Below, one piece after another: positions 5,931 through 54,587 of a stretch of 64,000 nt of DNA. The notes beneath the pieces are model-generated. The model was not told the origin of the DNA and did not search any database. It worked only from the letters and a program-made list of their open reading frames with translations. Position numbers and translations under genes: made by a program. Origin of the DNA: Thermosphaera aggregans. GTDB taxonomy: Archaea > Thermoproteota > Thermoprotei_A > Sulfolobales > Desulfurococcaceae. The DNA is taken from positions 176,582-240,581 of the forward strand of contig NZ_CP063144.1 of assembly GCF_014962245.1 (NCBI RefSeq). The letters are read 5' to 3'. How positions within the stretch are numbered: position 1 is the stretch's first letter; every line of letters begins with the position of its first letter.

Positions 5931-6493
5931 GCCCTGCGAAAATCTATGTTTTAAGATACGGGCACAGGCCTCAAAGGGATAAAAGGGTTACAACCCACGC
6001 CCTGCTGGTTGCAAGAGCTTTCGGAGCGAACGGCTTCATACTCGGGGATGTCGTGGACGAGAAGATTAAGGAGGCGTTCGAGAAGACCGTTAAGATCTGG
6101 GGAGGGCGCCTCCACTTTGAAATGGGGGTTGACTCCTTCAAGTACGCGCAGGAGTGGAGGAGGCACGGCTTCATTGTTCACTTGACAATGTATGGTTTAC
6201 CGGTTGACAGCGTTATCGACGAGATAAGGGGGAGGGGTAGCGACATGCTTATTGTGATAGGTGCTTCCAAGGTTCCAAGATTCTTCTACGAGGTAGCGGA
6301 CTACAATGTAGCGGTGGGCAACCAGCCCCACTCCGAGATAGCTGCGCTCGCCATATTCCTCGACAGGTACTACCAGGGGAGGGAGCTGTACTTCGAGCAT
6401 GAGGGAGGGAGGTTGAGGATTATTCCCCATGAACGGGGGAAGAAGGTTGTTCCCAAGCATTCCTTCTCACCCCTGGACGCGGAGACCCGTTAA
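5927..6493 (+). CDS. trm56: tRNA (cytidine-56-2'-O)-methyltransferase
   Basis: 188 residues matching archaeal Trm56 of the SPOUT class, which methylates C56 in the T-loop of tRNA. The diagnostic start VLRYGHRPQRDKRVTTH and the C-terminal VGNQPHSEIAALAIFLDRY (knot, SAM-binding region) are both present. The GTG start overlaps the hflX stop by 4 bases. The final 27 bases overlap the convergent surface-protein gene at 6467. Most archaea use this protein for C56 modification; Pyrobaculum species lack it and use a guide RNA. Confidence 0.93.
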   Translation: MSPAKIYVLRYGHRPQRDKRVTTHALLVARAFGANGFILGDVVDEKIKEAFEKTVKIWGGRLHFEMGVDSFKYAQEWRRHGFIVHLTMYGLPVDSVIDEIRGRGSDMLIVIGASKVPRFFYEVADYNVAVGNQPHSEIAALAIFLDRYYQGRELYFEHEGGRLRIIPHERGKKVVPKHSFSPLDAETR

Positions 6494-51279: not shown

Positions 51280-51287
51280 GTTTAAAT
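51280..51287 (+). promoter_or_regulatory. TATA-like element of the Trp/Glu micro-ORF
   Basis: TTTAAATA lies about 50 bases upstream of the TTG start at 51338, after purine-rich AGGGATATAG. Initiation near 51310 would leave a leader with the GAGGTG ribosome site. This independent promoter supports expression separate from dnaG. Confidence 0.4.
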
Positions 51288-51337
51288 ACCGGGTTCCAAC
51301 CAATTTAAAACAAGGAGTAACTAACGAGGTGCAGGGC

Positions 51338-51424
51338 TTGGTCTGGTTCGAGGAGGAATGGGAAGAGGAGTGGTGGGAAGAGGAAGAGGAATGGGAGGAA
51401 GAGTGGGAAGAAGAGGAGTGGTAG
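51338..51424 (+). CDS. Micro-ORF encoding a Trp/Glu-only peptide (28 aa)
   Basis: TTG 51338 to TAG 51424. GAGGTG (51326-51331) lies 6 bases upstream, the same ribosome site and spacing as the SmAP gene at 49468. After Met-Val-Trp-Phe every residue is Glu or Trp: 18 Glu and 7 Trp in 28, with Trp at 3, 8, 12, 13, 19, 23 and 28. On a helix, Trp 8, 12, 19 and 23 would fall on one face. A GTG start at 51329 would add three residues. The stop is 2 bases from the end of the convergent Cgi121-like gene. No known family comes to mind; a purine-tract artefact is the alternative. Confidence 0.5.
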   Translation: MVWFEEEWEEEWWEEEEEWEEEWEEEEW

Positions 51425-51426
51425 GG

Positions 51427-51945
51427 CTATATCAGTGACAGTAAACTACTAATGTTTTTTACAAGAACAGCCCGGGATTCCTCGTCAATGTTTTGAACAT
51501 AATCCTTGAAAACCTCGCACCCTGTTTTGTCGAAGCCTTCACCACCTATCGAGAACAGCAGGTAGTGGCTGCTCTCGGAATACCTCGCCCTTAGATCGCT
51601 GAGCAGGCTGCTGATCTGGGAGTGACCTGTTGCCAGCAGGAGTAGGAGAAGCCCCTGATTCCTGAATCTTGAAAGCTCGCTCCTGTAGAGCTCGTAGTGA
51701 ATACCTGCCTGGACAAGCTGGAGAGGGGTTTTAAACATTGAGAGCGGGAGAATAGCCGCGGGCTTATCCGGGGTGAGACCCCTGAGCCCCAGCTCCTTCT
51801 CGAAATCCTCATGCTGCTTGACACACTTGTAAGCGAACAGCTTCACCACTAGTTTGTTAAACCTTATGAGAAGGCATTCCCCGCCGGGCTCTACTGAGAA
51901 AACAGTGTCGGAATCGGCTGGTGTCTGCAAGAACAGGCCTCTCAA
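51427..51945 (-). CDS. Probable KEOPS subunit Cgi121-like protein
   Basis: 172 residues. The central part, FKTPLQLVQAGIHYELYRSE then LLLLLATGHSQISSLL, resembles the Cgi121/TPRKB pattern of an alternating helix followed by an 'A(S/T)G..QI' loop, which in KEOPS binds the tRNA CCA end for t6A37 formation. Length is right for the family. The match is suggestive, not decisive. It overlaps the rps17e gene by 4 bases and is cotranscribed with it. Confidence 0.45.
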   Translation of the reverse strand: MRGLFLQTPADSDTVFSVEPGGECLLIRFNKLVVKLFAYKCVKQHEDFEKELGLRGLTPDKPAAILPLSMFKTPLQLVQAGIHYELYRSELSRFRNQGLLLLLLATGHSQISSLLSDLRARYSESSHYLLFSIGGEGFDKTGCEVFKDYVQNIDEESRAVLVKNISSLLSLI

Positions 51946-52145
51946 GCCTTAGCCTTCTTCTCCCTGACAGCAACCAGGTGGGTTACATAGCCTGCTATCA
52001 GGTTCCTAACCTTCTTCGACTGAGTCTCCACCAGCCTGGAGACCAGGGCCTTGTTCTGTTCAAAATCCCTTGTAAACATATCCGGGTACTTCTCAAGCAG
52101 CTCCCTGGCGGTTCTCTTAACGACACGGATCCTTATCTTCCCCAT
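51942..52145 (-). CDS. rps17e: 30S ribosomal protein S17e
   Basis: 67 residues from ATG 52145 with GGTGAT 4-9 bases upstream; three further upstream codons are open. KIRIRVVKRTARELLEKYPD followed by FTRDFEQNKALVSRL is the S17e signature, with a basic tail (VREKKAKA). A small-subunit protein found in archaea and eukaryotes. Divergent from the TFS-like gene across a promoter region. Confidence 0.95.
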   Translation of the reverse strand: MGKIRIRVVKRTARELLEKYPDMFTRDFEQNKALVSRLVETQSKKVRNLIAGYVTHLVAVREKKAKA

Positions 52146-52315
52146 AAGCATCACCGTTTAGCAGTCATCACATACCATATTGTAAGCGGGTTTTTAAAAT
52201 ATTACAATCCCGGGAGCCCTGAGGGGCTGGCTCGCGAGGCTTCCTCGACTAGAAACCTTTATAATACGGTTATTATACACTATTATAAAAGTCGTAGAAG
52301 AACGTGGTGAAACAC

Positions 52316-52609
52316 GTGGTTAAATTCTGCCCTAGATGCGGCGGCCCCATGATGCCTACCAGGAAGGATGGAGAAGTCTTCTTCAAATGCAGCAAGTGCG
52401 GCTACGAGGTCAAAGCTGCTAAGAAAGACCTTGAGAAGTACGGGATGAAATACCAGGTTGAATCCAGCAAGAGGGTTGTAACGGCTAAGGCAACGGAGAG
52501 TAAGGCCTCCGGGCTAACACCTGAGGAGAGGGAGATGCTGCAGGAGTACTACGAGATATTCCTCGAAGAGTTTGCTGCGGAGGAAGGTGAAAGCGGGGAG
52601 AGTGACTAA
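52316..52609 (+). CDS. TFS/RpoM-like single zinc-ribbon protein
   Basis: 97 residues from GTG 52316, with GGTGA 5 bases upstream; GTG 52304 is an alternative. The N-terminal ribbon FCPRCGGPMMPTRKDGEVFF then CSKCGY matches the N-terminal domain of archaeal TFS / RPB9. The C-terminal ribbon that carries the cleavage-stimulating acidic hairpin is missing; instead there is a Lys/Ser linker and an acidic helical tail (EYYEIFLEEFAAEEGE). It may bind RNA polymerase without TFIIS-type activity. The stop codon lies in the hairpin 52600-52620. Confidence 0.8.
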   Translation: MVKFCPRCGGPMMPTRKDGEVFFKCSKCGYEVKAAKKDLEKYGMKYQVESSKRVVTAKATESKASGLTPEEREMLQEYYEIFLEEFAAEEGESGESD

Positions 52610-52778: not shown

Positions 52779-54587
52779 TTGACGAGGCTTGCAGTGGTTG
52801 ACAGGGATTACTGTAAACCGGATAAGTGCAGCCTTGAGTGTATAAGGTTCTGCCCTGTGAACAGGACGAGGAAGGTTAAGGCTATAGATTTAAGCGAGGA
52901 CAGGAGCCACTCCGTCATATTCGAGGATAAGTGCATAGGCTGTGGAATATGCGTTAAGAAATGCCCGTTCAACGCAATATCCATCGTCAACGTTCCCGAT
53001 GAGCTGGAGAAGCAGCTTGTCCACAGGTACGGGGAGAACATGTTCAAGCTGTACGGCCTCCCCGTGCCGAAAACCGGCGGCGTGCTGGGGATTATCGGGA
53101 AGAACGGCGCCGGGAAGACGACGAGCATTAAGATATTGTCAGGGCAGTTGAAGCCTAATCTTGGAGACTACTCCAGCGACCCAGACTGGGACAGGGTTGT
53201 TAAAGCCTTCAAGGGGAGCGAGCTGCAGACATACTTCTCCCGCATAGCCAATAACGAGTTGAAGAGTGTTGTGAAACCCCAGTATATTGAAGCTGCTAGG
53301 CGCGTGCTCAAGGGGAGTGTTGGAGACCTGTTATCCAAGGCTGATGAGAGAGGCTTGTTCAAGGACGTTGTGGATAAGCTGAACCTGAAAAACCTTCTCG
53401 ATAGAAGCGTGTCAGAGCTGAGCGGCGGGGAGTTGCAGAAGTTCCTCGTGGCAGCCGTCCTGTTGAAGAATGCTGACGCATACTTCTTCGACGAGCCCTG
53501 CAGCTACCTCGACGTGAGGGAGAGGGTTAGGGTTGCAGACGCTATCAGGGAGTTCACCAACCCCTCTAAAAACTACGTGGTGGTTGTCGAGCACGACCTC
53601 ATGATCCTCGACTACATCAGCGACAACATCGTGGTAATATACGGTGAGCCAGGGGTTTACGGGATAGCGTCGAAACCCTACGGTGTTAGAGCAGGGATAA
53701 ACCACTACTTGAACGGCTACCTTCCCGCTGAGAACATGAGGATCCGGCCTGAAGCAGTAAGGTTCAGGATACAGGTTGCTGAGAAACGCTTCGAGGAGTC
53801 GGAATACCCGGTGGTTAAATGGGAGAGGATGATACACCAGTATCCTTCATCAGGCTTCAAGCTCGTGGTTGAGGAGGGTGAGGCATACCCTGGCGAGGTC
53901 CTCGGCATCCTCGGGCCTAACGGTGTTGGCAAGTCAACATTCATCAAGCTGTTGAGCGGGGAGCTGAAGCCTGTTGAAGGAAGCGTGCTAATATCCGTTG
54001 AGAAGGTGAGCGTTAAACCCCAGGAGCTGTCCCCGAAGATCTTCGCGGAGGAAACAGTTTCTCAGGCCCTGAGGAACGCTTCCACGGAAGCACTCAACCC
54101 TGCTTCCTGGCTCTACAACGAGCTTGTGAGGAAGCTGAGGCTGAACAGGATGCTGGATAGGAGGATTGAAGAGCTCAGCGGTGGCGAGCTGCAGAAGGTT
54201 GCTGTAGCCGTCTCCCTGGCAAGGGATGCTGACCTCTACCTTTTAGACGAGCCCTCCGCATACCTTGACGTTGAGGAAAGAATTGTTGTTGCAAGAGTTA
54301 TCAGGAGGATTATTGAGGAGAAGAAGAAGACTGCCGTGGTGGTTGAGCACGACCTAATGCTTCAAAACTACATAAGCGATAAGATAGTGGTTTTCACGGG
54401 CAAGCCCTCCGTCGAGGGATACGCTAGCAGGACTCTCAGCATAAGGGAGGGCTTCAACACTCTTCTAATGAATCTTTCAATAACCGTTAGAAAAGACAGT
54501 GAGACAGGCCGTCCCAGGATAAACAAGCCTGGGTCAGTGCTTGATAGGGAGCAGAAAGCTCGCGGTGAGTACTACATCCCAGATTGA
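52779..54587 (+). CDS. rli1: ABCE1/Rli1 ribosome recycling factor
   Basis: 602 residues, TTG start with a GAGGAGAGGGGG region upstream. Two N-terminal [4Fe-4S] clusters (CKPDKCSLECIRFCP and CIGCGICVKKCPF), then twin ABC domains: Walker A GKNGAGKTT and GPNGVGKST, signatures SGGELQKFL and SGGELQKVA, Walker B with FFDEP and LLDEP, and the HLH insert in NBD1. It splits the 70S ribosome after termination. The sequence is complete and highly conserved. Confidence 0.97.
   Translation: MTRLAVVDRDYCKPDKCSLECIRFCPVNRTRKVKAIDLSEDRSHSVIFEDKCIGCGICVKKCPFNAISIVNVPDELEKQLVHRYGENMFKLYGLPVPKTGGVLGIIGKNGAGKTTSIKILSGQLKPNLGDYSSDPDWDRVVKAFKGSELQTYFSRIANNELKSVVKPQYIEAARRVLKGSVGDLLSKADERGLFKDVVDKLNLKNLLDRSVSELSGGELQKFLVAAVLLKNADAYFFDEPCSYLDVRERVRVADAIREFTNPSKNYVVVVEHDLMILDYISDNIVVIYGEPGVYGIASKPYGVRAGINHYLNGYLPAENMRIRPEAVRFRIQVAEKRFEESEYPVVKWERMIHQYPSSGFKLVVEEGEAYPGEVLGILGPNGVGKSTFIKLLSGELKPVEGSVLISVEKVSVKPQELSPKIFAEETVSQALRNASTEALNPASWLYNELVRKLRLNRMLDRRIEELSGGELQKVAVAVSLARDADLYLLDEPSAYLDVEERIVVARVIRRIIEEKKKTAVVVEHDLMLQNYISDKIVVFTGKPSVEGYASRTLSIREGFNTLLMNLSITVRKDSETGRPRINKPGSVLDREQKARGEYYIPD

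Follow-up and report, generated by a model that had tools for sequence, protein, structure and literature searches.

Between dnaG and a convergent gene of Thermosphaera aggregans lies a reading frame of only 28 codons that is composed almost entirely of glutamate and tryptophan. This locus raises the question of whether such a purine-rich stretch is a gene at all and, if so, which process its product could serve. The features that bear on this question are given below with their positions in the window, i.e. the whole stretch of 64,000 nucleotides that was analysed.

51281..51288, plus strand: TATA-like promoter element TTTAAATA of the microgene, kept in L003 and present as TTTTAAATA in L004
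51326..51331, plus strand: Shine-Dalgarno motif GAGGTG, with a 6-base spacer to the TTG at 51338
51338..51424, plus strand: predicted microprotein gene, 28 amino acids, MVWFEEEWEEEWWEEEEEWEEEWEEEEW, stop codon TAG; TTG start backed by relatives
51427-51945, minus strand: convergent gene of 172 amino acids
51455..51460, plus strand: T6 tract, probable terminator, 31 nt past the stop codon and inside the 3' end of the convergent gene; found in all three species
51942-52154, minus strand: gene for ribosomal protein eS17, adjoining the convergent gene
52304..52609, plus strand: RPB9/TFS-like protein with a single zinc ribbon (Pfam PF02150; TFS equivalog below its cut-off)
52779..54587, plus strand: ABCE1/Rli1 with an Fe-S domain and two ABC domains (NCBIfam NF009945, 881 bits; Pfam Fer4_RLI)

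The frame from 51338 to 51424 translates as LVWFEEEWEEEWWEEEEEWEEEWEEEEW followed by the stop codon, and its 28 codons comprise 18 Glu and 7 Trp, the latter with a spacing of 5-4-1-6-4-5; retranslation thus reproduced the counts and spacings of the original prediction. Its claim that the ORF has its own promoter and ribosome site also agrees with the sequence and with signal counts in relatives. The GAGGTG motif stands 6 bases before the TTG, in the same layout as at the SmAP start, and the TATA-like element is present, although it occupies 51281-51288 and not 51280-51287 as had been given. The sequence GAGGTGCAGGGCTTG around the microgene is invariant in three species of the genus. Starting at an alternative in-frame GTG (51329), which lies inside the Shine-Dalgarno motif, would yield 31 amino acids. 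The TTG is nevertheless the probable start, because relatives begin with ATG as MIWFEEEW, MLWFEEEW or MVVFEEEW and these starts align there. With a TATA box, a Shine-Dalgarno motif, an ORF and a T-run terminator, the microgene is predicted to be a stand-alone transcription unit.

The original prediction had further proposed that the tryptophans form a stripe on one face of an α-helix. This was not supported, as the tryptophans give a resultant of 0.24 at 100 degrees, a value reached by 55% of random placements, and their best periodicity is about 5 residues. An AlphaFold2 single-sequence model returned one helix (residues 4-30, pLDDT 87), which was not relied upon because the peptide is of low complexity and carries a net charge of about -18.

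Is the tract translated, or is it merely a purine-rich stretch that is open by chance? Composition alone speaks for the latter. The same ORF is found downstream of dnaG in two congeners, with its frame intact in both, and the two most different congeners are separated by nine synonymous GAG/GAA changes at third positions and a single V/I change. In six independent pairs of closely related members, 35 base changes were counted, 32 of which fall on position 3, three on position 1 and none on position 2, while length differences among paired members are whole codons. A constraint that only keeps purines would predict about one third of the changes at position 3, and this disagreement disfavours the reading as a mere purine tract. 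The conserved Shine-Dalgarno motif and terminator also speak against it, as does the fact that the ORF recurs at a fixed place and nearly always ends in Trp. A chance-open tract is therefore largely refuted on present data and appears highly improbable. We consider the 28-codon ORF to be a real gene, with translation predicted from the synonymous-only conservation of its Glu/Trp array in the congeners, as the original prediction had supposed.

The peptide appears to be the local member of an archaeal family, which we name WE microproteins and which is apparently undescribed and spread through the archaeal phylum of Thermosphaera. A plain protein search with the 31-amino-acid peptide recovered matches in the genus only, and degenerate GAR/TGG patterns were used for this reason. 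Such a pattern matched 21 of the 197 genomes of the order (reversed control, 0), at loci that read as short stand-alone ORFs. A scan of GTDB genomes returned 49 stretches, mostly archaeal, from Desulfurococcaceae, Thermogladius, Thermofilum, Bathyarchaeota, Hecatellales, Culexmicrobium and others. More families of the order were added by a pattern that tolerates Glu/Asp, and with another pattern some families without a copy beside ABCE1 proved to have members elsewhere. Bearers of the family presumably include Staphylothermus, Ignisphaera, Sulfolobus acidocaldarius and Metallosphaera, among others. In several families the vicinity of ABCE1 lacked a copy, and in some of the genomes searched none was found anywhere; since the patterns miss variants such as L318, absences at the family level are provisional.

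WE microproteins start with M-x-x-[FL]-EEEW, contain about 65% Glu and 18% Trp, and are mostly 21-60 amino acids long (median 27 in the representatives). Among 91 distinct ORFs, 83 end in Trp and three in Phe (86/91 in total), mostly within EEEEW or WEEEW. The signals seen in the window recur in the 57 non-redundant members: a TATA-like element in 42 (21% of random positions), a Shine-Dalgarno-like motif in 46 (41% at random) and a T5 run within 60 nt after the stop codon in 44 (12% at random). Lys and Arg are absent from 26 of the 35 representatives, so that ordinary tryptic proteomics would miss these peptides. A whole protein family can thus escape notice when its members are very short, maskable as low complexity and mostly devoid of Lys and Arg. 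In line with the earlier statement that no known family matches, searches with six WE peptides in Pfam and NCBIfam and with two in the PDB gave no match. No description of the family was found in the literature, where the string WEEEW occurs in one unrelated paper. Because the sequences are too simple for alignment statistics, distant homology rests on position, on start and end motifs and on gene anatomy.

Several other matches were not counted as members. The only match in viral contigs lies inside a frame of 1489 codons and was set aside; the bacterial matches of the genome scan fall within large proteins or apparent chance frames, and a match in Lokiarchaeia (L076), in the gap between two long ORFs, was judged to be due to chance. 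Two Thermococcus MAGs (L097, L112) encode MQPPKKKKVEEIEEEFF...WEEEW proteins with a basic N-terminus. These KKKK...WE look-alikes were kept apart, as they occur in another context and not near ABCE1. In a Nanopusillus MAG (L106, around 5975-6131, reverse strand), a Trp/acid-rich ORF is flanked by an NMD3-like gene on one side and an aIF1A gene on the other. The Thermococcus and DPANN look-alikes may be unrelated to the WE family. The WE peptide does not seem to correspond to aS33 or aS34, two ribosomal proteins of Saccharolobus (PMC11698992).

Which process the family serves is best approached through its neighbours. The gene upstream of the window microgene (dnaG) gave Toprim matches only; outside the genus, the microgene is tied to ABCE1 rather than to dnaG. 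Clustering of the neighbours identified ABCE1/Rli1 as the commonest cluster, which comprises 39 loci, a few of them with other ABC proteins. For the reverse test, ABCE1 was located in 380 of 397 genomes of the phylum and the 800 bp upstream were taken for 60 of them, about one per genus. A Trp/acid micro-ORF was present in the sense direction in 33 of these 60 genera and in the antisense direction in none, whereas random pieces carry one at a rate of about 1 in 1000. Although the genera are not independent of each other, at least 20 family labels of the sample are represented among the hits. Within the order, 19 of 30 loci have the microgene no more than 1.5 kb upstream of ABCE1, sense or divergent, and 5 of 28 genomes from families picked as likely negatives have it near ABCE1. 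The gap between both genes is mostly 41-134 nt and otherwise 219-508 nt, contains T-runs, and in several cases harbours a zinc-ribbon ORF (L214, L220, L233, L242, L253, L270). In the window, 1.35 kb separate the microgene from ABCE1 downstream of it, and the convergent gene and eS17 lie in between. Such a neighbourhood indicates a functional tie and not contact; clustering is seen for many information genes of archaea.

Few proteins of Archaea and Eukarya are as conserved as ABCE1, the ATPase of ribosome recycling, which is served in eukaryotes by the helpers eIF3j and Yae1-Lto1. To our knowledge, these helpers have no archaeal counterpart, and the WE family, tied to the ABCE1 gene in many archaeal families, is a direct and testable candidate for this role. 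We assign a probability of about 0.5 to the reading that the acidic, Trp-rich microprotein acts in trans, has ABCE1/Rli1 or the ABCE1-30S complex as its partner and docks in an eIF3j-like manner. Such a partnership would serve ribosome recycling and the return to initiation, and the place of the Nanopusillus look-alike between NMD3 and aIF1A genes agrees with it. Its likeliest mode would be multivalent docking, in which W-(E)n motifs and the C-terminal Trp enter hydrophobic pockets surrounded by basic residues, modelled on the acidic, Trp-containing N-terminus of eIF3j/Hcr1 in eukaryotes. The sequence comparisons establish the coding conservation, the family, its gene anatomy, the tie to ABCE1 and its persistence in unlinked places, while translation, binding to ABCE1 and an effect on recycling are inferred.

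Contact of eIF3j is reportedly seen in the ABCE1-43S complexes described by Kratzat in 2021. The PDB entries 6zce and 7a1g each contain both eIF3j and Rli1. ABCE1 is assisted by eIF3j (PMC7196836, PMC9618717), in which an acidic motif with Trp at its centre binds a hydrophobic protein pocket (PMC2824034). Both eIF3j/Hcr1 and the WE peptides contain acidic motifs centred on Trp, those of yeast being MSWDDE, DSWDAE and QSWDAEEEE (the Hcr1 N-terminus was checked in PDB 6zce); this is a resemblance and not homology. While eIF3j has a working link to ABCE1/Rli1, the corresponding link of the WE peptides is one of gene linkage. Yeast eIF3j comprises 265 residues with further domains, whereas the WE peptides have no other domain, and the window peptide, with 28-31 amino acids and no Pfam or NCBIfam match, displays neither its length nor its globular region. 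The comparison gave no evidence for common descent.

Helping ABCE1 could also mean supplying its Fe-S domain. As an Lto1-like adaptor, the peptide would bring Fe-S assembly factors to apo-ABCE1, with the C-terminal Trp and its carboxylate as docking signal. Yeast Rli1 requires the adaptor Yae1-Lto1, in which the C-terminal Trp of Lto1 binds the CIA targeting complex (PMC4523923), and a terminal aromatic side chain and carboxylate dominate binding to this complex (PMC13082141). The predominance of Trp or Phe at the end of the WE ORFs, after an acidic residue, fits this scheme, as does a PF01883 (Cia2-type) protein in 19 of the 21 genomes searched. However, the eukaryotic C-terminal motif is [LIM][DES][WF], whereas almost all WE ORFs have Glu instead of the aliphatic residue at the antepenultimate position (-2), and few archaeal Fe-S proteins end in W/F (PMC10623007). 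The PDB matches of the PF01883 protein from the window genome were four sequences of prokaryotic type, Cia2 not being among them, and an archaeal targeting complex is not established. The WE peptides also contain no glycine repeats and thus no deca-GX3 motif as defined for Lto1 (PMC4523923), and the repeated internal Trp residues would be left unexplained. The WE family fits neither the eIF3j nor the Lto1 definition in full: the many internal Trp favour the eIF3j-like model, the nearly invariant last Trp the Lto1-like one, which we regard as unlikely overall. Somewhat less likely still is that ABCE1 adjacency merely reflects a cluster of translation genes and that the peptide has another partner (the 30S subunit, the convergent 172-amino-acid protein or the zinc-ribbon protein) or is a disordered, nucleic-acid-mimicking peptide of the DSS1/Sem1 type. 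In Desulfurococcaceae, the microgene is also found beside the convergent gene and eS17, so that another partner is possible. Homologues of the convergent gene (159-172 amino acids) accompany it in 16 Desulfurococcaceae loci, genes for eS17, NMD3, aIF1A or EF-2 lie near some members, and a zinc-ribbon ORF separates microgene and ABCE1 in several lineages. ABCE1 recurs more widely than any of these neighbours, however, and the convergent gene was for the most part inherited as a single block. DSS1/Sem1 is likewise small, strongly acidic and Trp/Phe-containing, with about 70 amino acids and a C-terminal helix. Its acidic-aromatic segment precedes a helix of ordinary composition, while WE sequences end within the acidic array and have no Pfam match; no linkage to DSS1 partners was seen among the neighbours.

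The position directly before ABCE1 could also reflect control in cis, if translation of the acidic, Trp-rich ORF sensed recycling capacity or destabilised the ribosome and thereby tuned ABCE1 expression. Most adjacent copies are on the sense strand, 41-134 nt before ABCE1 and with T-runs in the gap, and a translation-aborting small ORF controls a Mg2+ transporter of Salmonella (PMC8092293). Like trp leaders and acidic translation-aborting ORFs, the microgene is a tiny ORF rich in one costly residue and often directly upstream of a larger gene. Leader peptides lie upstream of the regulated gene and on the same strand. This arrangement is true of many genera, but a convergent gene intervenes in the window and the microgene is divergent or distant in others, and the WE amino acid sequence is kept even without a same-strand gene directly downstream. 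In a Staphylothermus-like locus the microgene is divergent from ABCE1 and encodes a peptide of the same kind; in other genera it lies about 5 kb from ABCE1 or elsewhere in the genome, and the peptide, its start and end, the promoter and the terminator are kept. In the window, the intervening convergent gene and eS17 place it badly for a cis effect on ABCE1. The persistence of the peptide in these arrangements favours action in trans, and we consider a cis leader improbable, more so than the other partners discussed above.

On the preferred reading as a trans-acting ABCE1 partner, WE microproteins would be an ancient, undescribed archaeal family with an almost two-letter E/W sequence and would represent the missing archaeal ABCE1 cofactor, in the role of either eIF3j (recycling, initiation) or Lto1 (Fe-S loading); we see about even odds for this broader interpretation.

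The neighbours of the microgene deserve some additional remarks. The convergent gene had been called Cgi121-like, a name that found no support, since a Pfam search with its product gave nothing even at E=10. The zinc-ribbon protein ends in a YYE.FLE-type segment and is encoded directly before ABCE1 in several lineages, sometimes with the microgene as the third member of a trio. In two loci (L302 and L303, genomes G221 and G249), the Fe-S ligand motif of ABCE1 appears to be interrupted by an intein of roughly 320 residues, between CGIC and CVKKC.
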